DNA from: Bacteroidales bacterium
Lineage (GTDB): Bacteria; Bacteroidota; Bacteroidia; Bacteroidales; WCHB1-69
Reading direction: 5' to 3'
Length of the DNA: 60,648 nucleotides
NCBI GenBank assembly: GCA_024685175.1
Contig: JAIKWD010000036.1
Location: forward strand, 1 to 60,648
The notes below the pieces were generated by a model, which searched no databases, was not told the DNA's origin, and saw only the letters and a program-made list of their open reading frames with translations. The position numbers were made by a program, and so were the translations under genes. This document shows, in pieces, positions 6,225 through 46,891 of the stretch. Numbering within the stretch: position 1 is the first letter of the stretch; every line of letters starts with the position of its first letter.

Positions 6225-6232
6225 TATCTTTG
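6225..6232 (+). promoter_or_regulatory. -7 box (TATCTTTG) of the C10 protease gene
   Basis: TATCTTTG 27 bases before the ATG at 6260. It overlaps the upstream in-frame start at 6230, excluding that start. Confidence 0.6.
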
Positions 6233-6259
6233 CTCTTTCATTCAACAACGATTACGATT

Positions 6260-25162: not shown

Positions 25163-26662
25163 TTAATTTTCTAGTTTCTTCTTGGCTGCCTCCATTCGCT
25201 CGTATTCTTCGAAGAACTGTGGTAGGTTCTGCATCTCGATGCGCTTGTTGAGGATGATTTCGTGCTTGGAGTTGAGGATGAACATCGAAGGGTTGCCCGT
25301 CTCGTAGATGCCGAAATAGTCAAGATAGTCGATGTTGCCCTTGTTGCCGCCCACATTCGTCCACGGATAGTTGTTCTCCTTCACGTATTTCTTCCACGCC
25401 TCGATGGTGTCATCGTTGCCGATGGCATACACGTCGAAGTTGCGCTTGCCGATGGTCTCGAGAGAATCGTATACCTGGAACAGGTTCCTGGATTCCTTCT
25501 TGCAGGTCTGACAGTTGGGGTCGAAGAACCAAAGTATGGTGTAGGGCTTGGTCATGCTGTACGAGGAGATCCAATGTCTGACATCGTCGCTGAGCGTGGT
25601 GTCGGGGATAATCAGCTCAGGGGCAATCTTGCCGATAAGGGTGGGCTCGATACGTTTGATACGTTTCTGGTATTTGGAGATCAGGTCTTCGTCCATCCAA
25701 TAGCACTTGCCCTTCAACTGGTTGTTGGTGGCGATATGGTAGAAGACGGCATCGTGCCCGATGACCTTGCTGGTCTCAAACTGGTAAGAGAGCCAATCGA
25801 TGCAATAATGGTACATCAAGGTGTCTTTGACTGTTTTATCTATGAACATGTCTACATACTTGTTGATGGAGTCAGAAGGCAAGTGGTAGATTAACTTGTT
25901 GAAATATTCTTTCAATTTGGGCTCAAAGGAGGGAATGTAGATGAAACGATGGTCACCCAAGTCGAAATTGTCCCAGAAATGGGTGCGATAGTATATAGCT
26001 TGAGCTTCATAGTCCATTGTTCCGTCGGCTTTCTTGATTTCGGGCACGTCGATCTGCAGATAGGATTTCTGCATTTTGGAAAAAAGGTAGTTGGGATGCG
26101 GAGCGATGATTTCGGTACGAATAAAGTTTAGCATCTCTTCGTTGATGCCCTTGAGTTTGTTCTTGTAAAACTCGGCGCTGTCTTTATTGCCGGCCTCATC
26201 GAATTGTTTGAATTTTTTGGTCCATTCATTGGCCTGCAACTGTGCGTGACTGGTTCTCTTTTGGAACTTGAGCATCTCGTTGTTCTCTGGAGAGTTCACG
26301 ATGCTGAAGTTCTCCACATTGCCGGTGGTGTCCAAGTTGTATTCAAAGAATTGATTGTTGTCAATGATGAAGTTGAGATATAGACTCTTTTTCTCAGAGA
26401 CTAAGGAGTACAAACCGTCATCGTATTTTTCAGTTCCCTTGAAGACAAATTTACCTGGAGAAACAGGAGCGACAGAGTCTTTGAGAATGAGTTTTTCGTT
26501 GTAATGAATGACTAGATAAACGAGTTTGTCCTTGGAGTTCTTGATATTGAAAACCAATTCGTGTCCTTTTTTGGGGGTAGAACTCGATTTCCCTTTTTGT
26601 GCAAAAGCATTGCCATACAAGAAGGCAAGCAGGAGAAACAATAAGGTAAAATTTCTTTTCAT
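25163..26662 (-). CDS. Exported thioredoxin-like protein (DUF4369/TlpA type), CQTC active site
   Basis: 499 residues. Signal peptide MKRNFTLLFLLLAFLYGNAFA. The N-terminal third is a DUF4369-like beta domain, the middle a long helical region, and the C-terminal 130 residues a thioredoxin fold with FFDPNCQTCKKES as the redox CxxC and GNPSMFILN carrying the cis-Pro. Likely a periplasmic disulfide or thiol oxidoreductase. It starts three bases after the similarly built protein upstream, so the pair arose by duplication or is functionally linked. Confidence 0.85.
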   Translation of the reverse strand: MKRNFTLLFLLLAFLYGNAFAQKGKSSSTPKKGHELVFNIKNSKDKLVYLVIHYNEKLILKDSVAPVSPGKFVFKGTEKYDDGLYSLVSEKKSLYLNFIIDNNQFFEYNLDTTGNVENFSIVNSPENNEMLKFQKRTSHAQLQANEWTKKFKQFDEAGNKDSAEFYKNKLKGINEEMLNFIRTEIIAPHPNYLFSKMQKSYLQIDVPEIKKADGTMDYEAQAIYYRTHFWDNFDLGDHRFIYIPSFEPKLKEYFNKLIYHLPSDSINKYVDMFIDKTVKDTLMYHYCIDWLSYQFETSKVIGHDAVFYHIATNNQLKGKCYWMDEDLISKYQKRIKRIEPTLIGKIAPELIIPDTTLSDDVRHWISSYSMTKPYTILWFFDPNCQTCKKESRNLFQVYDSLETIGKRNFDVYAIGNDDTIEAWKKYVKENNYPWTNVGGNKGNIDYLDYFGIYETGNPSMFILNSKHEIILNKRIEMQNLPQFFEEYERMEAAKKKLEN

Positions 26663-26665
26663 AGA

Positions 26666-28003
26666 TTAATTATTTTCAAAGAATTTTTGCAACTCAGATA
26701 ACGTAATTTGTCGGGCTATTATTGTATGATACATGGAATTGTCAATCAACAAAATGACGGGTGTGGTCACAATGTCGAAATACTCTATAAAGTCAATGTT
26801 CTGTTCCCCTCGCGAGGTGCTCAGGTTAATCCAATCCCAAAGGTTGTGCTCGTCGGAAAACTTCTTCCAACGCTCGTAGTCGTCGTTGACTTCCACGGCG
26901 AAGACCTCAAAGTCGTATTCCTCAGCATGGTCGACGTACATCTGATGCAGTTGAGGGGTCATCTCTTGGCAGTGGTCGCAGTCAGGGTCCCAGAACCAGA
27001 GCACCGTGTATTTCGTTTTGATGTCGTTGGTGGAGTGTGGGTCTCCATCGAGGTCATGAGAGATAAGCTCGGGAATTCTGGCACCGGAAATCACCTTGCG
27101 CAGAGATTCGATTTTGCGTTTGGTGGATCCTTCGCGCCCTTCGGGAATCCAATCATGGTCGTAGTTGTCGTATAGATAGACCAATATGGGGTCCAAAACA
27201 GGGTCATGGATGTCGGCCATGGTGAAGAAATGGTTGAGGAAGAAGTTCCTGACGATAGGATTGGTACAGCGTTTCAAGATGTAATCCATGGAAGCCATTA
27301 TCGTGTCGGCGTCGTCTTCACGTTTAACCCAATGATCCAAGGCGTTGAAGATGATAAGCGGGGAGTGCAGCAGACGAGGCTCGGAGAAGTCCATGTCGTC
27401 GATCATCTGCATAATCTTGGCGTGGGCCTCATCTTTGGTGCGGTTGGCCATCTGCAATGTGCCATACGCAGCCGTGACATATTTACCCACGAATCCTTCA
27501 GGGGACATGTCGCGATATTCTTTGCATATCGGACGGATGTCTGGCGTGAAAACGGTCATGAGACGATCTCTGAAGGAGTAGAGGAGTGCATTTTCGGGCG
27601 AGCCTTCAATGTTAATGTCGTCGATGATGTATCCTATGGTAGAATCAAGATGTTGGGAATGATGAATGACAAACTTGGCTTCTTGGTTGATGATAAATTC
27701 ACCGATGATGTTGGTGTAGGAATGTGTGGAGTCGAAGTAGGCTAGTAAATAGACGCCGCAGGGTACTTCGCACTTGGATTTCTTGAAGACAGCCGTGCCT
27801 TTTTTCACCACGGCACTGTCTAAGAGATAGTATTCGCTGCCATTGAACCCTTGGATAAACAATTTCTGTAGATCTTCTTGGGTCGTGGTGACTTTTATGT
27901 TATACTTTTTCACCACAGGTGTGCCGTCGGAGGCGGTGGCCTGCGCCTGCGCAAAGCCGATGCCGAAAAACAACAGGAATATGATGAAAGGGATCTTTTT
28001 CAT
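26666..28003 (-). CDS. Exported thioredoxin-like protein (DUF4369/TlpA type), CDHC active site
   Basis: 445 residues. Signal peptide MKKIPFIIFLLFFGIGFAQA. Same layout as the next gene: beta-rich N-terminal domain, helical middle, C-terminal thioredoxin fold with FWDPDCDHCQEMTP and TTPVILLID. The active-site dipeptide differs (DH versus QT), which changes redox potential in this fold, so the two paralogues may have distinct jobs. Fourteen bases downstream of the phosphoglucosamine-mutase-like gene. Confidence 0.85.
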   Translation of the reverse strand: MKKIPFIIFLLFFGIGFAQAQATASDGTPVVKKYNIKVTTTQEDLQKLFIQGFNGSEYYLLDSAVVKKGTAVFKKSKCEVPCGVYLLAYFDSTHSYTNIIGEFIINQEAKFVIHHSQHLDSTIGYIIDDINIEGSPENALLYSFRDRLMTVFTPDIRPICKEYRDMSPEGFVGKYVTAAYGTLQMANRTKDEAHAKIMQMIDDMDFSEPRLLHSPLIIFNALDHWVKREDDADTIMASMDYILKRCTNPIVRNFFLNHFFTMADIHDPVLDPILVYLYDNYDHDWIPEGREGSTKRKIESLRKVISGARIPELISHDLDGDPHSTNDIKTKYTVLWFWDPDCDHCQEMTPQLHQMYVDHAEEYDFEVFAVEVNDDYERWKKFSDEHNLWDWINLSTSRGEQNIDFIEYFDIVTTPVILLIDNSMYHTIIARQITLSELQKFFENN

Positions 28004-33042: not shown

Positions 33043-33056
33043 CATTTCTCCTAACT

Positions 33057-34358
33057 ATGACATTTGAAGAGCTTCGCCAAAAATATCCCGTTTTCTCTTA
33101 CGAGGGTTATGATTATCACCTTGAAGGGAACGATTTGCATATACAATTCTTCTACAAGATAGGGGAGGAGATTGCTTTCCAGCCCAAGATGGTGCTCCAA
33201 CCCGGCGAGAATGCCCATTATCCTGTCGACTTGAAGGTGTTGGAGGGCATCGTCTTCAATATCGGGATGATTGAGTTGATCAGCTATTGGAAGTGCACGT
33301 GCAGTCCGTTGGTGCACGTCAAGCCGTACAAGCTCAGCAGCGACCAGCAATACTGGTGGCGTAAGCTTTATTGGTACGGGTTGGGCGAGTTTTGCTACAA
33401 GAACAACATTCACAGCGAGCCCAACGAGTTTTTGGACTTCACCTTTGCTGTGGGCACGCCCGACGCGGGACAGCTGACGTTTCCCACCATGCCTGACAGC
33501 GAGCGCGTCATCGTGCCCGTGGGCGGGGGCAAGGACTCGGTGGTGACGCTTGAGGAGTTGCGCACCGAGCGCAAGGTCGTGCCGTTCATCATCAACCCGC
33601 GCGGGGCTACGCTCGACTGCGCACGCATCGCGGGGTTCGAGCGCCTCGACCAAATCCTCGTGCTCCAGCGCCAGATTGATCCGAAACTCTTGGAACTTAA
33701 CGCCCAGGGCTATCTTAACGGGCACACGCCCTTCTCCGCGATGCTGGCTTTCTACTCCGTATTGCTCAGCGCCGTGACGGGTATCCGCGACGTGGCCCTC
33801 TCCAACGAGTCGAGCGCCAACGAGCCCACCATACCCGGAACCTACATCAACCACCAATACTCCAAGTCGCTGGACTTCGAGCTGGCCTTCCGCCAGTATG
33901 TACACGACTTTATGGGTGACGCCAACCACTATTATAGCCACCTGCGGCCGCTCACCGAACTGCAGATCGCCGAGCGATTTGCCCGATATCCCGCCTATTT
34001 CAAGGCCTTCAGGAGTTGCAACGCAGGCAGTAAGGAGAACAAATGGTGCTGCAACTGCCCGAAATGTCTCTTCGCCTACATCATCCTGTCGCCCTTTATC
34101 GACGATGCCACGATGATCGACATCTTCGGGGAAGATATGCTGGACAAACCGGAGTTGGTGGACACCTTCGACGAGTTGGCCGGCCTGTCGCTCAACAAGC
34201 CCTTCGAGTGCGTGGGCACGATAGGGGAGGTGAACGAGGCCCTGCACCGCTTAATGGAAAGCCGTAAGGATAAGTATTTGATCAAGCATTATGTCAACAA
34301 GCAACTGATTATGCTGGAAGACAATATGCTGGACGAATATTATAATATGGCGCCCTAA
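33057..34358 (+). CDS. PP-loop ATPase, MurL-like (UDP-MurNAc-L-Ala-L-Glu epimerase)
   Basis: 433 residues, no signal peptide. Central PP-loop VPVGGGKDSVVTLEELR implies AMP-forming ATP use. Later blocks are SNESSANEPTIPGTYINHQYSKSLDFE and a cysteine cluster ENKWCCNCPKCLFAYIILSPF. These fit my memory of MurL, which with MurD2 gives an alternative route to D-Glu in peptidoglycan by epimerising the terminal L-Glu of UDP-MurNAc-L-Ala-L-Glu. No mur gene is nearby to confirm it; a general PP-loop amidating enzyme remains possible. Twenty-nine bases separate it from the nucleotidyltransferase gene, probably one operon. Confidence 0.6.
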   Translation: MTFEELRQKYPVFSYEGYDYHLEGNDLHIQFFYKIGEEIAFQPKMVLQPGENAHYPVDLKVLEGIVFNIGMIELISYWKCTCSPLVHVKPYKLSSDQQYWWRKLYWYGLGEFCYKNNIHSEPNEFLDFTFAVGTPDAGQLTFPTMPDSERVIVPVGGGKDSVVTLEELRTERKVVPFIINPRGATLDCARIAGFERLDQILVLQRQIDPKLLELNAQGYLNGHTPFSAMLAFYSVLLSAVTGIRDVALSNESSANEPTIPGTYINHQYSKSLDFELAFRQYVHDFMGDANHYYSHLRPLTELQIAERFARYPAYFKAFRSCNAGSKENKWCCNCPKCLFAYIILSPFIDDATMIDIFGEDMLDKPELVDTFDELAGLSLNKPFECVGTIGEVNEALHRLMESRKDKYLIKHYVNKQLIMLEDNMLDEYYNMAP

Positions 34359-34387
34359 TGTTTTGATTATTAATTAAAAAGAAAGAT

Positions 34388-35263
34388 ATGAAACCTACAT
34401 TGCTCGTCTTGGCTGCCGGTATGGGCAGTCGCTATGGTGGCCTGAAGCAGTTGGACCGTATGGGGCCCAACGGCGAGACCATTATGGATTATTCGGTCCG
34501 ATATGCCCTGGAAAGCGGCTTCGGCAAAGTTGTCTTCGTGATTCGAAAGAGTATGGAGGACGACTTCAAACAATATGTTTTGCCGCGCTATCAGGATAAG
34601 ATTGCGGTGGAGTATGTGTTCCAGGAACTGGATATGCTGCCCGACGGCTTTTTGGTAGATCCGGAGCGCAAGAAGCCTTACGGCACCGCCCACGCTATCC
34701 TGGTGGCCAAAGATGCCGTAAAAGAGCCGTTCACCGTGATCAATGCCGATGACTTTTACGGCAAGGACGCTTTCCGTGTTATGGCGGAGTTCTTGACGAG
34801 CGGTGAAACCACCCAGCCGCCCACGTATGCGATGGTGGGGTATCGTTTGGACAAGACCCTGTCGCCCAACGGCACCGTGTCGCGCGGCGTCTGCAGCACC
34901 GACGAACACGATTATCTGACGAACATTGTGGAGAACCGCAAGATTGGCAAAACGGAGAACGGATATGAGAACCAAGAGGAACAGTTGCACAACTTCTTCA
35001 AGGGTGACGAGCCCGTGAGCATGAACTTCTGGGGTTTCACGCCCGATTTCTTCGATTGTTTGAATGATCTTTTTGTGGATTTTCTGAAAGAAAACCAGGG
35101 CAACATCACGGCGGAGTTTCCCATCCCCAATGTGGTGTCGTATTTGATGGAAAGCGGCAAGGCCCGAGTAAAGGTGTTGCACAGCAATGCCGAGTGGTTT
35201 GGCGTAACCTACCAGGAGGACCGTCCGGGCGTAGTAAAGAGGTTGGCCGAACTGGACGACTAA
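34388..35263 (+). CDS. Sugar-phosphate nucleotidyltransferase family protein
   Basis: 291 residues, cytoplasmic. LVLAAGMGSRYGGLKQ is the nucleotide-binding signature of NTP-transferases such as RmlA/GalU, and VINADDFYG is the metal-binding Asp region; GTAHAILVAKDAV contacts the base. Unlike RmlA it has a distinct C-terminal half ending VKRLAELDD. Sugar and nucleotide specificity cannot be read. It follows the MurL-like gene after 29 bases. Confidence 0.85.
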   Translation: MKPTLLVLAAGMGSRYGGLKQLDRMGPNGETIMDYSVRYALESGFGKVVFVIRKSMEDDFKQYVLPRYQDKIAVEYVFQELDMLPDGFLVDPERKKPYGTAHAILVAKDAVKEPFTVINADDFYGKDAFRVMAEFLTSGETTQPPTYAMVGYRLDKTLSPNGTVSRGVCSTDEHDYLTNIVENRKIGKTENGYENQEEQLHNFFKGDEPVSMNFWGFTPDFFDCLNDLFVDFLKENQGNITAEFPIPNVVSYLMESGKARVKVLHSNAEWFGVTYQEDRPGVVKRLAELDD

Positions 35264-35611: not shown

Positions 35612-38600
35612 ATGAGAAAATTTTTAATTTTACTTATTGCAATCGCGGGCTGTTGCATAGCCGCCAATGCGCAAGTCGGATACCAATTACCCAATAGTGG
35701 GTTTGAGAACTGGACGACGGAAACTTATACTGCAGGATTGATTTTTCCAAGCAATCATACGTCTGATATCCCTAACAGTTGGCGTTCTATAAATTCAGCT
35801 ACTGGAAGTCTTAGACAACAAGGTGCAGATGAAGGCTTTGTGAGTAAATCAACAGACGCTCATAGTGGCTCATACAGTGTTAAGTTGACAAGTGTTTCTA
35901 AAGTAGGCGTCAATGCAAATGGCGGATTGACATCAGGTCGCTTTAACGCAAATAGTATGACTGCTGCAAATACTCAAAATTGTACGTATACCAGTACTGT
36001 TTCAGGATATAATACATCTATCTCAACATATCCAGACTCTGTCTATCTCTGGGCTAAAACAGATATGTCTGGAACGGCGCAAGCCCATTTTAATATGGTT
36101 TTGCATACGAATCAAATCACTTCGGGAAGTAGTGCCTACTATCAAAATCCTGATCCGAGCGACGCTAATAATAGTGTTATAAATGCTAATGGTGCCACTA
36201 ATCAATCAAGAGTGGTAGCCCAGGCGATTTGGAATGGTAACCCCACTACCTGGACAAAGATAAAGCAACCTTTCACTTATACGGAGGGAGATAAAACGCC
36301 TTCATTTATTCTTATTACTCTCTCTACTAATGCAACTCCTGGTGGTGGTAGTGCAGGTGACAAGGTCTTTTATGACGACATCGAACTTATCTATAACACG
36401 CGTTTGGATAATTTAACGGTTAATGGTACAACTATTCAAGGGTTTAATAAAGATATATTGGAATACACATACCCGAATGAAGTTTGTGGAAACGATTTGG
36501 CTTCGTTATCTATTGTGGGTACGCCAAAGTCATCCCATGCAACTGCCACCATTAGCCATGTGCCAACTGTGGATGAACCTTACGCGATTGTTCATGTGAC
36601 CCATAAGAACCAAGAAAATGATAACAATGTTTCCAAAAACTATAGAATCAACTTTAATTTGGCGTCCGTTAATGTGGAACTGGACAATAATGGCAACTAT
36701 ACCGTTTGTCAGGGACAAACGGTCACGATGAACGCGTCTGGTGCCGATTCCTATGTGTGGAGTAACGGCTTGGGCAATAATAGCTCAGCACAAATAACCC
36801 TGACGCAGGTTGGTACATACGAATATACGGTTACCGGAACATCCAATATTAATGGGTGTTCGGTTTCCAATATTGCCACTGCTCACGTGACCGTGGTGGC
36901 ATCACCTAATGTCACCATCAATGGTTCGACTACAGGCTGTACGTCTGTTAATCTTACGGCTACCGGTGCCACAAGTTTTTCGTGGTCAGATGGTACTACG
37001 GGTAATACTTGGTCAACAACAACTGTTGGCGACTATAGTCTTACCGTTACCGGTACTACGGGCAACTGCTCAGGTACTGCAACCGTTCAGGTGCACGTCT
37101 ACGGCAACCCCATAGTCGTCATTTCGGGCCCCAACACTGTTTGTACGGGTGAGAGCACAACGCTCACTGCTTCCGGTGCCACCAGCTATTCTTGGAGCAA
37201 CGGAGCGACGGGCGATGCCATCACTCCGACCACATCCGGTCCGTACACAGTCACGGGTACCTCCAACGGATGTACCGCTACGGCAAGCCATAACATTACC
37301 ATCAACGAAACGCCCACGGTGACCATCTCCGGCGTTACTGCCATCTGCTCGGGTAACAACACGACGCTGACGGCACAGAGCACTGTCCCCAATACTACCT
37401 ACACTTGGTCGGACAACTCGACCGACAACACCCTGACCGTATCTACGGGTGGGCAGTACAGCGTGACGGGTTCTTCCAACGGCTGTACCAACACTGCCAC
37501 TGTGACGGTCAACGTGGCCGATCTGCCCGCTGAGCCAACTGTTACCAACGTATCGCGTTGCGGCGCAGGCGAAATAACCCTTACCGCCACCGCTCCGACT
37601 GGCTGTACCACATATTGGTATCTTAGCGAAAATACAAATGAGTTTACGAATACGGGCGACACCAATACAACTACTTTGCAGCAGTCGTTCACCTACTATG
37701 TCGCGGCCCGGAATGCGGCCGGCTGTTTCTCTGCGCGCGTGCCCGTCACGGCCACGGTGATTCCCGCTCCAACCACGCCCTCGGTCACCGCTGTCTCCAA
37801 CTGCGGCGCATACAACGACTTCACGCTGACGGCCACCGGCTCCAACCTGCAATGGTTTGCCGACGCCAATGCTACGCAACCCATCGAGAACATGACCTTG
37901 AACGTGACTGCCACGACCACCTACTACGTTCGCTCCGGCGACGAGAACTGTCATAGCGAACTCGTTCCGTTGACCATCACCATCAATGACAATCCTGCCA
38001 AGCCGACCAATATTACGGCCAATCCCGCATCCCTTTGCGGTAGCGGCAATGTCACCATCTCTGCCACGCCGGCAACGGATTGCCAACTCAACTGGTTCCT
38101 TGTCAACAACCCGTCCTCCGCATCGGATGCATTCTCCACTAACAATTCTGTTCAACGGAACAACGTGAACAGCACGACCACCTACTATGTGAGATCCTAC
38201 AATACCACTACGGGATGTTATAGCGAAATGGACAGCGTGTCCGTCGTCGTGAGTCCCGCCCTTGATCCGACTCCTGTCGCGGGTGCCACTCTTTGTGCTG
38301 CCGGTGAAGTGACCCTTACGGGTACGCCCGGCGAAGGCAACACCTTGCGTTGGTACCTTAACAACGAGTTGGTGCATACCGGAACTTCCTATACGCCGAT
38401 GATAAACGGCAACACCGCCTTCCAGGTGGCCACATACAATGAAACCTCCGGTTGCGAAAGCGATCGTTATCCGGTGAATGTCACCATCAGTGCGACCGTA
38501 CCTGCGCCCACGGTGGAGGCTTCCACGGTCTATGCCTGCGGTGGCAACGCAACCCTGCAAGCCAGAGCCGGACAAGGCACGACCCTGCAATGGTACGATG

Positions 38601-41600
38601 CTGCTGGCAATGCCATCACGGGAGCAACCGGCGCCACTTATACAGTGAGCAATCTGTCGGCCAACGCCCAATATCAGGTGGCCGCCAGCCAAGGCAGTTG
38701 CCAAAGCGCGATGACCACCGTTGATGTGGTTGTTGTCAATGTCAATGCTCCTGCCACTCCGACACTCTCTGCCTCCAGTGTCTGCGGTTCCGACGATGTG
38801 ACGATGACGGTCACCCTCGCCGAAGGCCAAAACGCCCATTGGTATGCCAATGGAACCACGACCACCGTTCTGGCAACTGGTTCAACTTATACCGCGACGG
38901 TGAACTCCAGCAACAACACTTTCTTCGTCGCCGTTTTCGATGAGACCTCCAATTGCGAGTCCGCTCGCACATCCGTCACGGTTACGGTCAACGCCATTCC
39001 CGAAAAGCCGACCATTGCCAGTGCCAACCGAGACATTGAGCACTGCGGCACTTACGAAGACTTGACCCTTACGGCCACGGCTCCCGCGGGCTGCACCTTG
39101 CAGTGGTTCACAGACAGAGCCGCCACCCAAGCAGTGGAGAACACCACCTTGGATGTCGCCAACACCACAACCTTCTATGTTCGCTCATACAACGGCAACT
39201 GCTCCAGCCAAATGGACTCTATCGTAGTCACCATCAACCCGATTCCGGGCGTGCCTTCTGTGGTTACCCCTGAGCCGAGATGCGGTTCTGCTACCGGCAC
39301 CATTCCGGTCAGCATCACGGGTACGCCGGGCGCTAACGGTACGGTTTGTCATTGGTACAACGCCGACGGCGTCTACCAGTTGGGTCAAAACACATATGGC
39401 GGTAATTTCGCCACATCATTCAGTCTCTTGGTCTCTTCTTATAACTCCAATACGCATTGCGAAAGCGAGCAGATTACGGTGAATGTGGTCATCAACAATC
39501 CTCCTGTGGCTCCTACGCTTACTGGCGATACGCGTTGCGGCGAAGGTGAGGTGACGCTCTCCGCCACGGGCGGTACCGCGGACGACACCTACGCTTGGTA
39601 CGCCAGTGCCGATGCTACGGAAGCCTTCTTTACGGGTGCAACCTACACTCCGATGCTTTCCCAAAGCGCCACATACTATGTGGCCACCGTCAACCCGACG
39701 ACTGGTTGTTCCAGCCAGCGCAGAACGGTGACAGCCACTATAAATCCCGCTCCGGCGGCTCCTACCACGCAAGACATCGACGTCTGCGGCGCTCAGAACG
39801 TGACGCTGACCGCTACCTCTGACGCCAACCTGCATTGGTACGCCAGCCAAGAGGGTGGGGAAGCCCTGACCTCGACCACTGTTTCGCTGAACGAAGGCGT
39901 TACTACTTACTATGTGGCTGCTTACAACACCAACTGCGAGAGCGAGCGCGTACCGTTGGCCGTGACCGTCAATGCCATTCCTGTCTTGTCGGATGTTACT
40001 GGCGACGAACGATGCGGCGAGGGTACGGTTACATTGTCCGCTACCGCCTCTGAAGGCGCTATCGTAAGATGGTTCGCCAACGCTACCGATAACGAACCTG
40101 TCGCTACAGGTACTACCTACGCTCCGAGCATTAGCCAATCCACGACATATTATGTACAGGCCTACAACGAAAGCACGAGCTGCCATAGTACGCTCGGCAA
40201 CGTTACGGCTGTCATGAACGAGACCTATGACACGGAATTCAGCGAAACGGCCTGCGATTCATTCGTATGGGCAGGCCAGACCTATTCTATATCCGGCGAT
40301 TATCAACACACCTTCCAGTCGGTCAATGGTTGCGATTCCATCGTGACATTGCATCTGACTGTTAACCAGAGCCAACAGACTACCGTGGATACCGTAGTCT
40401 GTAACCAGTTCGTCTGGGGTGGTGACACGTATACTCAATCTACTTCCATTACCAAAACATTCAATTCTTCTACGAATTGTGATAGTGTTGTAACTGTGAA
40501 CTTAACTGTACTTCAATCTACCACGGGCACGGAATCTCTGACATTCTGTAGCAATCAACTTCCCGCAGATTACCACAACACCACAATCGACCACGCAGGA
40601 ACCTATACTGTGACCATCCCTAACGCAGCTGGTTGTGACAGCACGATCACGTTGACTGTGATTGTGAACCCGCAGCCGGGTGTGGCGACCATGACACCGC
40701 AATCTCGTTGTGGCGAGGGCGTTGTTATCCTTTCCGCCACTTCGGGCCAGAATGCCAATACCTGTTACTGGTATGCGGACGAGACGACGACGGACACCCT
40801 TCACAGTGGCTTTGCCTATCAACCGACCATCAGCGGCACCACCACTTATTATGTGGCCTCTGTCAACACCACTACGGGCTGTATGAGCGCCCGCACTGCG
40901 GTCACCGCAACCGTCAACCCTAATCCTGCCGCTCCTACGGCAAGCGACGTCAGCCGTTGCGGCCGCGGCCCGATCACCCTCACGGCACATACCGACGATG
41001 CCAATGCCAATATTCGTTGGTTTGCCACGAGCAGCGCCAATACTCCTATTGCCACGGGTGTGACCTATACCAATGAAGATCAGGTTACTCCTACGACATA
41101 TTATTTAGATTGTATATATGAAAATACGGGTTGTAAGAGCAATAGAGTTCCGGTGCAAGCCATCGTGAACCCGATTCCGGCTGCACCTCAAGTAACCGAC
41201 CTCACGAACTGCGGTCCTGCCACACTGACGCTTGCCGCCACGGTTCCGGAAGGCAGCAATGCCCAATGGTATGCTACCAACGACACAACCCAACTGTTGA
41301 ACAACACCAGCGTTTCCGTTGAAGACAACGCCACCTATTACGTGCGTTCCAACGACGGAACCTGCGCTAGCCAACTCACTTCGCTCAACATCACGATCTA
41401 CCCCGTATATCAAGCACAAGACCTCTATGACACCGTATGCCAAGGCGTTGCCTATACGGGTTACGGCCTTAACAACACGTACACGGTGAGCGGCGAGCAG
41501 ACGATTGCTTTGGCTGCCCAATCCATCAACGGTTGCGACTCCGTCGTCACCTTGCATTTGATGGTCAACCCGACCGCTTCCTCCGAGTTTACGGAGGTGG

Positions 41601-44600
41601 CTTGCAACAGCTATACCTGGGAAGGCACGACCTATCAAGAGAGCGGTAATTTTGTAAAGCATTTCCTGACGGTCAATGGCTGTGACTCCGTCGTCACCTT
41701 GCACTTGACTATCAATCGTACCGTCAACAACAGCATCTCTGCCACCGCTTGCGACAGCTATGCTTGGAACGACAGCACCTACACCACGAGCGGTGACTAT
41801 GTCCAGACCTTCATCGCTGCCAACAGCTGCGACTCCGTCGTTACGTTGCACCTGACCATCAACAATTCTGTGGCAACGGAATTCACCGAAGTCGCTTGCA
41901 ACAGTTACACTTGGGACGGCTCGACCTATACCACGAGCGGCGATTATACGAAAGAGTATGAAACCCTTGCCGGTTGCGACAGCATCGTCACGCTTCATCT
42001 GACCATCAACTATTCCAACAATATTGTGATGAACGACACTGTCTGCGAAGGCGGCGCCTACACAAACAATGGATTTGACACGACCTTGACCGCCGGCACA
42101 TACACGCTGACCCATTCGGGTACGAACCAGTATGGTTGCGACAGCACGACTACGTTGCACTTGGTCGTGAATCCTGTTTACAATATTAGTATTACGGCTA
42201 TGACCTGTACGGGTCAAAGCTATCCGTTCAACGGCCAAAACCTGACCACCGCCGGAACGTACACGGCCAATCTGCAGTCGGTCAATGGTTGCGACAGCAC
42301 GGTCACCTTGACTTTGACGGTGGGTGCTGAATGGCGCGACACGATCACCGCTCACGTTTGCTATGGCGGTTCGTATAATGCCAACGGATTCAACATCTCC
42401 AATGCTACCACCTCTCAGTTCTACTCGAATTCCGGCACTTCGGCCAGCGGCTGCGACAGCACGATGGTGCTCCGTCTCGTGGTCCACGACCTGAATACCA
42501 CGGAACTCAATGCTTCTATCTGTCTGGGCCAGACCTACAACCTCAATGGCTTCAACATCACTCCGACCGTGGCCGGTATGTTCGACACCACCAAGATTGT
42601 GAAGACGGCTTTCCAATGCGACAGCACTGTGGTGTTGCACTTGATGGTCAACCCAACTTATTATTTCAGCGACACGATTACGACTTGCCAATCCAGTACT
42701 CCGTACCACTATGCTGTGGAGAACGATGACATCGTCGTGAATACGCCGGGTACCAAGACCAAGACGTACAACCATACCACGGCAACTGGTTGTGACAGCA
42801 TCCGCACGTTGACGCTGATTGTCAATCGTTCGTACAACCAACAATACACGGGCACAGTTTGCGCCGGCTCTGCGTATACACAACACGGCTTCGACACCAC
42901 GTTCGTGGAGGAAGGCCAATATACGCTCGTTCACGAATTTGTGACCGCCAAGGGTTGCGACAGCATCGTCACCGTGGTCTTGACCGTGAACCCTGTCAAG
43001 ACGACGAACCTGACGGCTACACTCTGCCAGGGCGAGTCTTACACCCAGAACGGTTTCGACGTAACCCCGACGAATGATACGATCTATGTCCGCAACTTGA
43101 GTGCCGTCGGTACGGGTTGCGATAGCATCGTGACGCTCACGGTGACTGTCAATCCGGTCTACCACAACAACTACACCGGCACCGTCTGCTTAGGCGACGT
43201 ATACACCGGAAATGGTTTTGAGGTAACTCCTGATGCCGCTGGCGTGTTTACCTATGTGGACTCCAGCACGACCGTGAACGGCTGCGACAGCATCTCTTCG
43301 TTGACATTGACCGTCAATCCTTCCTACAATCTCAGCTATACTGCCTCCATCTGTGAAGGCAATACCTTCGCTCAATATGGCTTTGACACCACCTTCACCG
43401 AAGCCGGTGTATATGAGCTCTCTTATGAAGGTGCCACTATCAACGGCTGCGACAGCAACGTGACCGTTATGTTGACGGTTAATCCTATCTACAGCGTGGA
43501 TACGACCGTCGATATTTGCGATGAAGCCCTGCCGTTCAAGTGGAACAACGACAACGCCTATTCCTATATGGAGAGCGGCAACTACACAATCAGTTATTCT
43601 ACGGTTAGCGGCTGCGACAGCATCGTTAACTTGCATCTCAACGTGCATCCGAGTTTTGAGATTGACACCGTCATCCAAACCTGCGAAGGTGCGTTGCCTT
43701 ATCAATTTGACGAGAACAACTCCTTCAACGGCACGGGTAACTATACGGTAGCCCTTCAGACTGCCTTCGGTTGCGACAGCATCTACCACATCCAGTTGAT
43801 TGTCACGCCGTCCATCACGCATACGGTGACCCGCAACATCTGCGAAAGTGCTTTGCCATTCACTTTAGGCGATTCCATCTTTACGCAGGCAGGTGAATAT
43901 GAAGTGGTGGCCACCTCTGCCGGTGGTTGCACGGAGATTACCTATCTCACCTTGAATGTATATCCGGAATTCGTGGAGACACAAACCGTTACGGTCTGTG
44001 CCAACGAGTTGCCCTACGTGCACGATGCCACGCACAGCTACACCGAAGCTGGCACGTACACGCTGGATTACACGACCGCCCACGGTTGCGACAGCACGGT
44101 GACTCTTACCTTGAACGTCACGCCCAACCCGACAAGCGTTGACACGCGTGCCGTGTGCGCCGGTGAGTTCCCGATCGTTTATGGGGATAGCACCATCTCC
44201 GCCGCCGGTGAATACAACATTGTCTTCGAGCGCGAAGGCCTGTGCGATAGTCTTGTCACACTGACCGTGATCGAGAATCCAGTCTATGTGTTCGACTCCA
44301 CCATGGCTGTCTGCTCCGACGAGACTCCTTATCTGTGGCATGGCCAAAGCCTTACCGAGAGCGGCACGTTCGTTGATGAACATCAGACCGTGGCGGGTTG
44401 CGACAGCATCTACACCTTGCATCTGACGGTTAACAACACCTTCTTGCAAAATGACACGGTCACCATCTGTAGCGATGAGACACCGTACGATTGGCATAAC
44501 CGCAGTCTCACCACTTCCGGCCTCTATGCCGACACCCTGACGACCGTTGCTGGCTGCGACAGCGTCTATACCCTCAATTTGATCGTCAATCCAAAATACT

Positions 44601-46891
44601 TCTTCGACGAACAGGTCTCCGTCTGCAGCAACGCGCTGCCGTTCGAGTGGCACGGCAAGACCTTCAACAACGACGCCGTGGCTTACGACTCGCTGACCAC
44701 TCTGGCTGGCTGCGACAGCATCTACAAGCTGACCCTGACCGTGGCTGAATACACCGTGATCAATGACGATCCCATCGTGTTTTGCCAAGGCGAGACCGTC
44801 ATGTGGCGCGAGATGACCATCTCCGAAACGGGCATTTACTACGACACCGTAACCACCACGGCGGGTAGCTGCCCGACTGTCTATGCTGTCAACGTGACCG
44901 TGAACCCGAGCTATCATTTCGTCGATACGATGGCCGTTTGTGCCGACCAACTTCCTTACATCTGGCACGAACAACGCTTTACCAAGGACACGACCATCAC
45001 GGTTAGATACCAGACCGCCGCTACCTTCTGCGACAGCGTCTATCAACTCACCTTCATCGTGCGTCCCGTCTATGCCAACACCGAAGACCTTACCGTCTGC
45101 GCAGATGCAGTGCCGCACGAGTGGCACGGACAATATTTGAGCGAGAACGGCACCTACTACGACACATTGACCACCGTCTATGGCTGCGACAGCACCTTTG
45201 TGCTCAATTTCAACGTCCAAACGGTGACAGCCGTCAATGATACTATGCTTGTCTGCGATGAGACAACCTACGCTTGGCATAACCAAACGCTCACGGAGTC
45301 CGGCGTCTACTACGACACCGTGCGCACCGTTACCGGCTGCGACAGTCTGGTCTACTCGCTGGCCCTGACTATGGGAACTTCCTTCTACGACATCGACACG
45401 GTGACCGTGGATGAGGGATTCGGCACCTATGCTTGGCACAATATGAACATCACGGCTCCCGGCCTGTACAGCGACTCCAGTCTTACGACCACCGGCTGCG
45501 ACAGCGTCTATCAACTCATGCTCACGGTCAACTCCACTCAAATCATCGAGAGCACGCCTATCCAACTCTGCCAAGGCGATTCCGTACAATGGCGCGGTCG
45601 TTGGATTAATGCCGCCGATACCTATACCGATACGGTGGGCAACGTGATCTTCCGCGTGGTGGTTACCGTCAATCCTTCCTATGCTTACTATGACACGGTG
45701 ACCGTCTGCCAAAGCGAACTGCCGTATTTTTGGCACAATCGTTCGCTCACAGCGGCGGGTGTCTATACCGACCTGCATCAAACCGCCGAGACTGGTTGCG
45801 ATAGCACCTACCACCTTACCCTCTTCGTGAACCAGACCTATTTGTTAGAGGAGACACAGACCATCTGCGCCTCCGAGGCACCGTACTCATGGCACGGTCG
45901 CGAACTCGCCGTTGGCGGTGTCTACTACGACTCCTTGCAGACCGCCGCTTTCTGCGACAGCATTTACAAGTTGACATTGACTATTAATCCTGCTGTCTAC
46001 CAAGAGGATACGGCCGTTACCTGCGAAGGCACGCCCTATGTATGGCGCGGCCATAGCCTGACCCAGAGCAATGTCTATCGCGACACCGTGCCCAATACGT
46101 ATGGCTGTCAGGATATCTATGTGCTGCATCTTACCGTGAACCCGATTTATCGCGACACCGTCCGCGCCACCATTTGCCAAGGCGAGACCTACAACGAAAA
46201 CGGATTCAACGTCACGCCGACCACCTATGGCACGATCTATGATCAACTCACGCTTTCTACCCAACAAGGTTGCGACAGCACTATCATACTGATCCTGACC
46301 GTCAACAGGACATTCTCGTACGAGGAGACGGCCAGCACCTGCGAAGGCACTCCTTTTGAATGGCGCGGCAGTATGTATCTCGTTGAAGGCACGTACTACG
46401 ACAGTCTGCAAACCCAATCCGGTTGCGACAGCGTCTATGTGCTACACCTGACCGTCAATCCTTCCTATGATATCTATTACGAAGACAGCGTGCTACTCAA
46501 CCATACCTACGAGAACTATGGATTTGTCGTCAACGCCACCGATACGGGCGTGTTCGAGTACACCATGAACTACTTCACCGTTATGGGTTGCGATAGTGTC
46601 ATCCACTTGACCTTGCACGTCAACTCCAACATCGGCGTTCAAGACTATGAACTCCCGCAATTGCGCGTCTACCCGAATCCTGCCACTACCTTCATCAATA
46701 TCGAGAGCGAAAGGATGCAGAAGATCTCGGTCTACGATATGCACGGTCGCCTTGTTAAGATCCAAGATGCCGACTCTCCCGAGTTTACTCGTCTTGAAAT
46801 TGAAAACGCCACTGCAGGCTTCTATATCCTCAAGATCCAATTGATGGACGGCGCTATCCTAACCAAGAAATTTGTTGTTAACAGGTTTTAA
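35612..46891 (+). CDS. Giant repetitive T9SS-secreted surface protein (3759 residues)
   Basis: Signal peptide MRKFLILLIAIAGCCIAANA. Residues 22-260 resemble a PCMD-type lectin-like domain (GYQLPNSGFENWTTE, KVFYDDIELIYN). A cadherin-like segment (265-345) and four PKD/Ig-like domains (350-635) follow. About 14 Ig-like repeats of roughly 80 residues (type I: RCGxGxVTLxAT...WYA...TTYYVxxxN...C.S) fill 635-1530 and 1687-1929. About 36 repeats of roughly 52 residues (type II: VC...PYxWHGxxLTxSGxYxDTxxTxxGCDSxYxLxLTVNP) fill 1532-1686 and 1930-3670. Each repeat has two conserved Cys, likely a disulfide. The end (YPNPATTFINIES...YDMHGRLVK...AGFYILKI...KKFVVNRF) is a type A T9SS sorting domain. Probably an adhesin or surface-layer stalk. 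The first 1.3 kb is clearly more AT-rich than the repeats. Confidence 0.93.
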   Translation: MRKFLILLIAIAGCCIAANAQVGYQLPNSGFENWTTETYTAGLIFPSNHTSDIPNSWRSINSATGSLRQQGADEGFVSKSTDAHSGSYSVKLTSVSKVGVNANGGLTSGRFNANSMTAANTQNCTYTSTVSGYNTSISTYPDSVYLWAKTDMSGTAQAHFNMVLHTNQITSGSSAYYQNPDPSDANNSVINANGATNQSRVVAQAIWNGNPTTWTKIKQPFTYTEGDKTPSFILITLSTNATPGGGSAGDKVFYDDIELIYNTRLDNLTVNGTTIQGFNKDILEYTYPNEVCGNDLASLSIVGTPKSSHATATISHVPTVDEPYAIVHVTHKNQENDNNVSKNYRINFNLASVNVELDNNGNYTVCQGQTVTMNASGADSYVWSNGLGNNSSAQITLTQVGTYEYTVTGTSNINGCSVSNIATAHVTVVASPNVTINGSTTGCTSVNLTATGATSFSWSDGTTGNTWSTTTVGDYSLTVTGTTGNCSGTATVQVHVYGNPIVVISGPNTVCTGESTTLTASGATSYSWSNGATGDAITPTTSGPYTVTGTSNGCTATASHNITINETPTVTISGVTAICSGNNTTLTAQSTVPNTTYTWSDNSTDNTLTVSTGGQYSVTGSSNGCTNTATVTVNVADLPAEPTVTNVSRCGAGEITLTATAPTGCTTYWYLSENTNEFTNTGDTNTTTLQQSFTYYVAARNAAGCFSARVPVTATVIPAPTTPSVTAVSNCGAYNDFTLTATGSNLQWFADANATQPIENMTLNVTATTTYYVRSGDENCHSELVPLTITINDNPAKPTNITANPASLCGSGNVTISATPATDCQLNWFLVNNPSSASDAFSTNNSVQRNNVNSTTTYYVRSYNTTTGCYSEMDSVSVVVSPALDPTPVAGATLCAAGEVTLTGTPGEGNTLRWYLNNELVHTGTSYTPMINGNTAFQVATYNETSGCESDRYPVNVTISATVPAPTVEASTVYACGGNATLQARAGQGTTLQWYDAAGNAITGATGATYTVSNLSANAQYQVAASQGSCQSAMTTVDVVVVNVNAPATPTLSASSVCGSDDVTMTVTLAEGQNAHWYANGTTTTVLATGSTYTATVNSSNNTFFVAVFDETSNCESARTSVTVTVNAIPEKPTIASANRDIEHCGTYEDLTLTATAPAGCTLQWFTDRAATQAVENTTLDVANTTTFYVRSYNGNCSSQMDSIVVTINPIPGVPSVVTPEPRCGSATGTIPVSITGTPGANGTVCHWYNADGVYQLGQNTYGGNFATSFSLLVSSYNSNTHCESEQITVNVVINNPPVAPTLTGDTRCGEGEVTLSATGGTADDTYAWYASADATEAFFTGATYTPMLSQSATYYVATVNPTTGCSSQRRTVTATINPAPAAPTTQDIDVCGAQNVTLTATSDANLHWYASQEGGEALTSTTVSLNEGVTTYYVAAYNTNCESERVPLAVTVNAIPVLSDVTGDERCGEGTVTLSATASEGAIVRWFANATDNEPVATGTTYAPSISQSTTYYVQAYNESTSCHSTLGNVTAVMNETYDTEFSETACDSFVWAGQTYSISGDYQHTFQSVNGCDSIVTLHLTVNQSQQTTVDTVVCNQFVWGGDTYTQSTSITKTFNSSTNCDSVVTVNLTVLQSTTGTESLTFCSNQLPADYHNTTIDHAGTYTVTIPNAAGCDSTITLTVIVNPQPGVATMTPQSRCGEGVVILSATSGQNANTCYWYADETTTDTLHSGFAYQPTISGTTTYYVASVNTTTGCMSARTAVTATVNPNPAAPTASDVSRCGRGPITLTAHTDDANANIRWFATSSANTPIATGVTYTNEDQVTPTTYYLDCIYENTGCKSNRVPVQAIVNPIPAAPQVTDLTNCGPATLTLAATVPEGSNAQWYATNDTTQLLNNTSVSVEDNATYYVRSNDGTCASQLTSLNITIYPVYQAQDLYDTVCQGVAYTGYGLNNTYTVSGEQTIALAAQSINGCDSVVTLHLMVNPTASSEFTEVACNSYTWEGTTYQESGNFVKHFLTVNGCDSVVTLHLTINRTVNNSISATACDSYAWNDSTYTTSGDYVQTFIAANSCDSVVTLHLTINNSVATEFTEVACNSYTWDGSTYTTSGDYTKEYETLAGCDSIVTLHLTINYSNNIVMNDTVCEGGAYTNNGFDTTLTAGTYTLTHSGTNQYGCDSTTTLHLVVNPVYNISITAMTCTGQSYPFNGQNLTTAGTYTANLQSVNGCDSTVTLTLTVGAEWRDTITAHVCYGGSYNANGFNISNATTSQFYSNSGTSASGCDSTMVLRLVVHDLNTTELNASICLGQTYNLNGFNITPTVAGMFDTTKIVKTAFQCDSTVVLHLMVNPTYYFSDTITTCQSSTPYHYAVENDDIVVNTPGTKTKTYNHTTATGCDSIRTLTLIVNRSYNQQYTGTVCAGSAYTQHGFDTTFVEEGQYTLVHEFVTAKGCDSIVTVVLTVNPVKTTNLTATLCQGESYTQNGFDVTPTNDTIYVRNLSAVGTGCDSIVTLTVTVNPVYHNNYTGTVCLGDVYTGNGFEVTPDAAGVFTYVDSSTTVNGCDSISSLTLTVNPSYNLSYTASICEGNTFAQYGFDTTFTEAGVYELSYEGATINGCDSNVTVMLTVNPIYSVDTTVDICDEALPFKWNNDNAYSYMESGNYTISYSTVSGCDSIVNLHLNVHPSFEIDTVIQTCEGALPYQFDENNSFNGTGNYTVALQTAFGCDSIYHIQLIVTPSITHTVTRNICESALPFTLGDSIFTQAGEYEVVATSAGGCTEITYLTLNVYPEFVETQTVTVCANELPYVHDATHSYTEAGTYTLDYTTAHGCDSTVTLTLNVTPNPTSVDTRAVCAGEFPIVYGDSTISAAGEYNIVFEREGLCDSLVTLTVIENPVYVFDSTMAVCSDETPYLWHGQSLTESGTFVDEHQTVAGCDSIYTLHLTVNNTFLQNDTVTICSDETPYDWHNRSLTTSGLYADTLTTVAGCDSVYTLNLIVNPKYFFDEQVSVCSNALPFEWHGKTFNNDAVAYDSLTTLAGCDSIYKLTLTVAEYTVINDDPIVFCQGETVMWREMTISETGIYYDTVTTTAGSCPTVYAVNVTVNPSYHFVDTMAVCADQLPYIWHEQRFTKDTTITVRYQTAATFCDSVYQLTFIVRPVYANTEDLTVCADAVPHEWHGQYLSENGTYYDTLTTVYGCDSTFVLNFNVQTVTAVNDTMLVCDETTYAWHNQTLTESGVYYDTVRTVTGCDSLVYSLALTMGTSFYDIDTVTVDEGFGTYAWHNMNITAPGLYSDSSLTTTGCDSVYQLMLTVNSTQIIESTPIQLCQGDSVQWRGRWINAADTYTDTVGNVIFRVVVTVNPSYAYYDTVTVCQSELPYFWHNRSLTAAGVYTDLHQTAETGCDSTYHLTLFVNQTYLLEETQTICASEAPYSWHGRELAVGGVYYDSLQTAAFCDSIYKLTLTINPAVYQEDTAVTCEGTPYVWRGHSLTQSNVYRDTVPNTYGCQDIYVLHLTVNPIYRDTVRATICQGETYNENGFNVTPTTYGTIYDQLTLSTQQGCDSTIILILTVNRTFSYEETASTCEGTPFEWRGSMYLVEGTYYDSLQTQSGCDSVYVLHLTVNPSYDIYYEDSVLLNHTYENYGFVVNATDTGVFEYTMNYFTVMGCDSVIHLTLHVNSNIGVQDYELPQLRVYPNPATTFINIESERMQKISVYDMHGRLVKIQDADSPEFTRLEIENATAGFYILKIQLMDGAILTKKFVVNRF
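37513..41400 (+). repeat. Type I Ig-like repeats in the giant gene (about 14 copies)
   Basis: Repeating unit of about 240 bases coding for PxxPTxxxxxRCGxGxVTLxATxxxGxxxxWYA...TTYYVxxYNxxxxCxSxRxPVxVTVN. Copies are diverged, not exact, so they are old duplications kept by selection. Three type II units interrupt the block at about 40207-40670. Confidence 0.85.
41400..46620 (+). repeat. Type II short repeats in the giant gene (about 33 copies here)
   Basis: Unit of about 155 bases. Two sublineages can be told apart by eye: one with NGF(D/N) in the middle (mostly 42000-43480, and again near 46190) and one with WHG/WHN/WRG (mostly 44300-46420). Nearly all end GCDSxxxLxLxVNP. A few lack the GC pair (for example near 45580-45670). 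Confidence 0.85.

Follow-up and report, generated by a model that had tools for sequence, protein, structure and literature searches.

We found that the window, the whole 60,648-nucleotide stretch of Bacteroidales DNA analysed here, encodes a protein that is probably a secreted fibrillar stalk of shortened Ig-like units, in which each junction would be stapled by a disulfide between the first cysteine of one unit (n) and the cysteine of the GCDS motif in the next (n+1). Judging by sequence patterns and structure predictions, we give this reading a probability of about 0.72. Disulfide formation itself, oxidation, the mechanics of the rod and an adhesive role are what we infer from the observations below.

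The rod gene is a single open reading frame (ORF) of 3759 residues on the plus strand (35612..46891), its domains assigned with Pfam and NCBIfam; all features named here lie on that strand unless stated. A signal peptide (35612..35671), read by eye without a predictor, precedes an N-terminal head of about 240 residues (35672..36397), a candidate ligand-binding domain whose best Pfam match, CBM_4_9, falls below cut-off (E 0.086). A cadherin-like beta sandwich containing Cys292 follows (36398..36661), its match weak and likewise below cut-off (E 0.0051). The stalk comprises 54 domains of three Ig-like kinds: four PKD/Ig-like domains (type P), 14 Ig_7 domains and 36 GCDS units. The P domains (36674..37519), delimited by Cys-spacing segmentation and alignment, have a weak Ig_7 match (E 0.0072) and are followed by eleven Ig_7 domains (37526..40216), ten of which match the Ig_7 model singly and one of which, at 39248-39493, was placed by alignment. 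GCDS units 1-3 (40220..40669) then precede three more Ig_7 domains (40676..41398), of which two match singly and the third (41177-41398) was placed by alignment, bringing the Ig_7 units to 12 of 14 with a match of their own. The main array, GCDS units 4-36 (41405..46624), was located, as were units 1-3, with a profile of units. The chain ends in a Por_Secre_tail / TIGR04183 domain found by both Pfam and NCBIfam (46667..46879; 49.7 bits against a cut-off of 27, and 36.2 against 23), a type A sorting domain that marks the protein as T9SS cargo. The window genome has a T9SS (SprA_N match of 540 bits) and 53 T9SS-tail matches, 51 of them over cut-off. The sequence-only reading had pictured a rod on the cell surface, with which the sorting domain and the T9SS agree, and we infer export to the cell surface via the signal peptide and sorting domain. 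Upstream of the rod gene lie minus-strand ORFs at 33051-34247 and 34370-35182, without a Pfam match; plus-strand ORFs overlap this region, so that either strand may be the coding one. Elsewhere in the window, 6230-8302 combines a Peptidase C10, a Spi inhibitor domain, a CUB domain and a T9SS tail.

The GCDS units are 46-58 residues long, with 33 of them consecutive and three upstream between Ig_7 domains; the array of about 33 copies described from the sequence was thus right in count and coordinates, with three units to add. Both cysteines are present in 30 of the 33 main-array units and in 33 of the 36 overall, and two conserved flanking cysteines occur in all 14 Ig_7 units of the window. 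By unit alignment, the exceptions are unit 29 (45377..45532), which lacks the first Cys, unit 30 (45536..45673), which lacks the GCDS Cys, the very one expected to pair with unit 29, and unit 36 (46463..46624), the last, which lacks the first Cys and has no downstream partner. That the 36 units match their own profile is true by construction and is not evidence; the profile also finds arrays in other proteins of the window genome and in other genomes. Tandem Repeats Finder (minimum score 30) detected no array of the unit's period in the window DNA, and identity between any two units peaks at 63%, which rules out recent tandem duplication at the DNA level; the array must be old because unit identity is low and no such DNA-level array exists. 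The two sublineages proposed earlier (WHG/WRG and NGF) were close to the mark, but motif patterns split the units three ways, into SYTW-type (5 units), NGF (9) and WHG/WR (13), with 9 of the 36 in none. Mean identity is 0.37-0.48 within these three groups and 0.29-0.31 between them (0.32-0.48 within groups of units taken overall), and a tree of units supports the three groups only loosely.

No family above cut-off was found for the units in Pfam, including a scan of the 36 units one by one, or in NCBIfam, where an isolated NprX hit to unit 2 (E 0.4) lay far below cut-off, and the unit profile had no match among PDB sequences; the earlier statement that no named Pfam family covers the repeat is borne out by these HMM-type searches. 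Neither Ig_7 (E<=10, HMMER filters on) nor Rib was among the families matched in the Pfam scan of the 36 units. AlphaFold predicted two different unit triples with mean pLDDT of 94.9 and 95.3 and pTM of 0.66 and 0.70; each unit of the first model has five strands, in line with the beta domains that had been proposed. By Foldseek, the neck of the Aureispira grappling hook GhpA (9flp, a deposited cryo-EM structure) ranked first for both triples, at low TM-scores of 0.35 and 0.37 of the query, and Rib tandems ranked high after it, also at low TM-score.

Profile comparisons relate the GCDS unit to its neighbours in the rod. By hhalign with enlarged alignments (150 GCDS, 54 P and 61 Ig_7 rows), GCDS and P align end to end over 50 columns with a probability of 92.6% (E 4.7e-7, for a single comparison) and a score of 32.2, against a maximum of 16.5 in 100 column shuffles; smaller alignments gave 71%. 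The GCDS unit is the shorter by a 10-residue gap just past the first Cys and a 6-residue gap further on. P in turn matches Ig_7 at 94.3%, so that Ig_7 is chained to GCDS through P; directly, GCDS and Ig_7 match at 18% (score 18.4, against 14.7 for the best of 100 shuffles), and in a first profile comparison their score of 16.1 was not above 200 shuffles (maximum 21.7). The Ig_7 model calls no GCDS unit, and Ig_7 units here measure about 72-83 residues, longer than GCDS units. From profiles and models we conclude that the GCDS unit is a putative shortened Ig-like domain, related to its Ig-like neighbours in the rod and reduced by comparison with them. It would retain strand A, the C-C' hairpin, F and G and have lost strand B and some of the D/E region, these strand names being our own assignment.

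The two cysteines of each unit could pair in three ways: within the unit; the GCDS Cys of one unit with the first Cys of the next; or the first Cys of one unit with the GCDS Cys of the next. The last pairing was suggested by a reading of 36 anomalous units, from which ten loci with weak or poorly called units were excluded, and in which window units 29/30 and neighbouring units in three other loci (L060, L062 and L064) had lost exactly that pair. This inter-unit rule was set down before the test stretches were fetched; 40 were fetched, and the 37 without overlap to earlier loci were tested. Unit calling was tightened after a noisy loose tally and the same strict rules were then used on both sets; L079, L111, L112 and L117 (the last three overlapping earlier loci), ORFs with fewer than two GCDS hits of at least 20 bits, and units under 12 bits were excluded before counting.

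Among 465 adjacent pairs in the test set, 454 had both the first Cys of unit n and the GCDS Cys of unit n+1, none had the first Cys only, six had the GCDS Cys only and five had neither; a missing GCDS Cys thus never followed a unit with its first Cys present. With kinship ignored, the five co-losses compare with 0.12 expected (Fisher p 2.6e-9). In the discovery set both were missing in 2 of 432 pairs, to which window units 29/30 and L064 are added by eye. Co-loss within a unit occurred in none of 540 test units and none of 496 discovery units, and the remaining pairing, GCDS Cys with the next first Cys, showed none in 465. Under the loose calling, within-unit co-loss had been scored in 9 of 697 units (p 5e-6) and co-loss of the inter-unit pair in 4 of 615 (p 2.7e-4). 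On re-reading, seven of the nine within-unit cases had their cysteines outside the called stretch (four in L079, and one each in L046, L061 and L067), one, in L072, was cut by the locus end, and one, a P domain of L064 scoring 7.7 bits, was truly without both.

By reading, the five test co-losses reduce to three distinct events, in L123/L124, L134/L137 and L136. The first maps by alignment to window units 24/25; the window keeps both cysteines there, so the pair changed together. L123 and L124 also share the window's double absence at units 29/30. Adding the window, L060, L062 and L064 brings the distinct events to about seven, and neither rival pairing has a single one in GCDS units; the events are few, and many rods of the test set belong to the window's genus and are homologous to its rod. 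In L072 and L061, seven domains called as P or Ig_7 lack a first Cys and carry an extra Cys where strand G ends, immediately ahead of the following GCDS unit. In these two loci, P domains without a first Cys recurrently end in a CIPAQ-like motif at that point.

Covariation places the two cysteines of a unit apart. Mean-field analysis of 961 distinct units (effective number 719) and, for inter-unit couplings, 802 tandem pairs recovered strands F and G as an antiparallel hairpin (i+j=76) and strand A as parallel to strand G (pairs 4-45, 6-47, 8-47, 10-49 and 11-50). The parallel offsets 37, 39 and 41 average 0.59-0.86 against a background of -0.01 (sd 0.48); competing antiparallel diagonals reach 0.76-0.81 over four cells and at best 0.37 over eight. 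Since A runs parallel to G, the end of A, with the first Cys, and the start of G, with the GCDS Cys, should lie at opposite poles of the unit. The strongest of 2540 non-self inter-unit couplings is 12(n)-40(n+1), with a z of 10.9, and the second strongest, 51(n)-38(n+1), falls likewise at the junction. We give more weight to the strand register than to the 12-40 coupling because the cysteine coupling partly restates the co-loss and because the coupling is high within units as well (1.45-1.57, sixth in the single-unit list). Between a GCDS Cys and the first Cys of the following unit, the segment measures 23 residues at 787 of 853 junctions and, in the window rod, at 29 of 31; the other inter-cysteine segment varies from 24 to 37 residues.

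The inter-unit pairing also accounts for the cysteines of the window rod, giving 53 bonds and no orphan among 106 domain cysteines, a count that by choice takes in Cys292 of the weak cadherin-like domain, without which Cys416 is an orphan. Within-unit pairing leaves four orphans. Bonding of the GCDS Cys to the first Cys of the next unit leaves six and, with no co-loss to its credit, was rejected. The scheme does not cover nine cysteines of the protein, including two in the signal peptide. Six extra cysteines in Ig_7 domains (residues 665, 824, 1161, 1246, 1718 and 1834) have no partner, and five of these sit 2-4 residues before the conserved Trp.

The ends of rods follow the same pattern. The last GCDS unit before the sorting domain lacks a regular first Cys in all 15 test rods and in 10 of 12 discovery rods, many of these rods being homologous. 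The two discovery exceptions carry extra cysteines, right after strand G in L061 and several within the unit in L071. Six of the fifteen test last units (L126, L128, L129, L133, L135 and L136, of another rod family) have two cysteines of their own close together, as CY...YC, which may form a private pair, perhaps a hairpin disulfide. First domains lacking the GCDS-type Cys were seen, as uncounted examples, in L068, L061, L066, L133 and L129. At nine junctions (three discovery, six test) the first Cys of unit n is missing with the next GCDS Cys present; by eye, three of these show a spare Cys where strand G ends, four are calling failures, one is an ORF edge and one, in L073, is a real exception. 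Mixed junctions show this GCDS-only kind in 17 of 341 cases: seven with a spare Cys, four with a shifted Cys and six assigned to neither class. In L050, one Ig_7 domain of an Ig_7 chain lacks both cysteines, a loss compatible with the inter-unit rule and with a within-unit rule alike.

Bonding of the two cysteines of each repeat to each other, giving a chain of internally locked domains, was the picture of the sequence-only reading and also our own first one; we dropped it after the anomalous units and the strict co-loss test, and now consider it probably wrong and unlikely. It would fit the near-constant presence of both cysteines (215 of 226 units in an earlier tally), the first Cys that 57 of 59 block starts have of their own, and the 24 of 60 block ends beyond which no Cys lies within 20-28 residues. 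The L064 P domain without either cysteine speaks for it too and, standing after a unit that keeps its first Cys, counts against the inter-unit rule. Against these stand the complete lack of GCDS units that have lost both, the orphans that this pairing leaves in the window rod, and last units that drop the first Cys and keep the second. The parallel register of A and G, moreover, would set the two cysteines at opposite poles. The sequence-only reading had itself named cysteines far apart in the structure as telling against disulfide-locked repeats; far apart within the unit is where the register suggests they are, and loss pattern and register together point to bonds between neighbouring repeats.

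Co-loss by itself fits pairing within one chain and between chains alike, so that unit n of one chain might bond unit n+1 of a parallel neighbour in a bundle. GhpA forms oligomeric hooks, and its neck is the nearest fold to the GCDS triples. We nevertheless hold such bundling to be improbable, because strand register sets both cysteines of a pair at the same junction, where a bond within the chain is at hand. Just as improbable, in our estimate, are cysteines that stay reduced or bind metal and are conserved for packing. Neither VKOR (E<=0.001) nor DsbA (E<=0.01) has a match in the window genome, and VKOR was found in 1 of 16 other carrier genomes searched and not in the other 15, as reduced cysteines would have it; pairwise loss, however, is expected of bonded pairs and not of independent packing residues, and disulfides between T9SS and gliding proteins (SprF-GldK and PorG-GldK) have been demonstrated in Bacteroidota envelopes, according to the available part of PMC12635249.

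In the stapled stalk that we favour, the head would be held away from the cell by the 54 domains. The first Cys, at the end of strand A, would face the next domain and bond the GCDS Cys in its F-G loop. A covalent path could then run from the GCDS Cys of unit n along strand G, a short linker and strand A to the first Cys of unit n+1, across the disulfide to the GCDS Cys of unit n+2, and onward. Two such cables would be interleaved along the rod with the loops bypassed, and unfolding of a domain could hardly lengthen it. As a 23-residue segment that spans two domains allows little slack, load should barely stretch the rod, and the stapled stalk would be an unusually stiff covalent rod.

The same model would require some factor to oxidise about 50 junctions in every molecule, in a genome that gave no match to VKOR or DsbA. 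Proteins at 25163-28003 have a DUF4369/thioredoxin fold with CxxC sites CQTC and CDHC, and had been suggested as perhaps needed for the rod. Their genes lie on the opposite strand, about 7.6 kb away. By tblastn, 11 rod-gene flank stretches from seven same-genus genomes gave one hit (21.8% identity, E 1.1e-11, in L146) and none closer at E 1e-8, so the proposed need finds no support. A link of the rod to these genes is not conserved, including in genome G423, where the enzyme downstream of the rod is kept.

The unit profile, with up to 17 candidates scored per genome, matches at least 27 of 395 genomes of the window's phylum (E<=0.001); it also matches all 40 genomes of its genus (E<=1e-8), the window genome being included in both counts. 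That genome has 81 GCDS matches spread over several proteins; some genomes of the genus have about 150 or more. Nine named relatives, among Bacteroidales or Bacteroidia MAGs (yak omasum, water buffalo rumen, red deer and RUG11958), Flavobacteriales, Crocinitomicaceae, Fluviicola and an uncultured Bacteroidetes, point together with the T9SS to Bacteroidota as the phylum. Thirteen same-genus rods, two of which end at contig ends, share one plan: P domains, 3-16 Ig_7 domains (with P mixed in for some), three GCDS units, three Ig_7 domains and a main array of 20-58 GCDS units. Other GCDS rods of the genus have other domain plans. In G423 the rod (L124) has as its neighbour the enzyme that lies downstream of the window rod (81% identity over 985 residues) and is 45% identical to the window rod over its full length, with equal domain counts and a head only 22% identical. 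The heads of same-genus relatives share 22-47% identity with that at 35672-36397, against 75-81% for the downstream enzyme. The head thus appears to be a fast-changing part of the rod. Of the features that define a fibrillar adhesin, the repeated stalk domains are present, and no family scores above cut-off in the head. A T9SS-exported stalk that is long and would be stiff, and whose head changes fast, fits an adhesin or grappling fibre best.

Several known systems resemble this predicted rod. The GhpA hook assembly is used in predation. Its Ig-like neck is homologous to the rod (phmmer E 8.4e-63 with the rod protein, E 2.5e-40 with the Ig_7 profile), and Ig_7 (PF19081), the GhpA domain, occurs in the same polypeptides as GCDS with the same two-cysteine plan. 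The Rib domain of streptococcal and lactobacillar surface proteins, described in the accessible text of PMC6936399 as an Ig-like unit shortened by domain atrophy, with strands B, D and E lost and arranged in head-to-tail rods, provides a published precedent for reduction of a GCDS-type unit and is among the Foldseek hits. Unlike Rib, GCDS has a conserved cysteine pair, belongs to another phylum with another export route and lacks a sequence match to it. A giant adhesin of Mobiluncus mulieris has 51 repeat Ig-like domains with covalent cross-links, which, in the portion of PMC10619420 available, are intramolecular within domains and accompanied by a flexible interdomain linker, a difference from the junction staples proposed here. 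Periscope proteins and other fibrillar adhesins carry a head on a repeat stalk of variable length (PMC8201768 and PMC8286594, in the parts available). Stalk length varies here as well, as the main arrays of same-plan rods attest; unlike in periscope proteins, the variation is between species, not strains, and the GCDS units have diverged. Among titles and abstracts in the literature searched, none describes the GCDS repeat or a ladder of disulfides from domain to domain in rods of this type; the search results did not include the GhpA paper, which may describe the disulfides of GhpA.

The GCDS unit recurs in surface proteins across the phylum, yet is named in none of the libraries searched. 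We speculate, at about even odds, that one cross-linking rule serves the Bacteroidota rods of GCDS, PKD/Ig-like and Ig_7 domains, with the far-pole Cys of one domain bonded to the F-G-loop Cys of the next in two nearly inextensible cables, and that GCDS is an Ig domain in which loss of core strands was tolerated because staples at the junctions keep it together. Such a shared rule would add another instance of Ig domain atrophy, next to Rib, that can be traced by sequence, and its cross-links would follow a plan unlike the within-domain bonds reported for the Mobiluncus adhesin. If true, the pairing rule itself would explain the nearly fixed 23-residue segment, the cysteines missing where rods end, and the ability of a 50-residue Ig remnant to keep its fold outside the cell.
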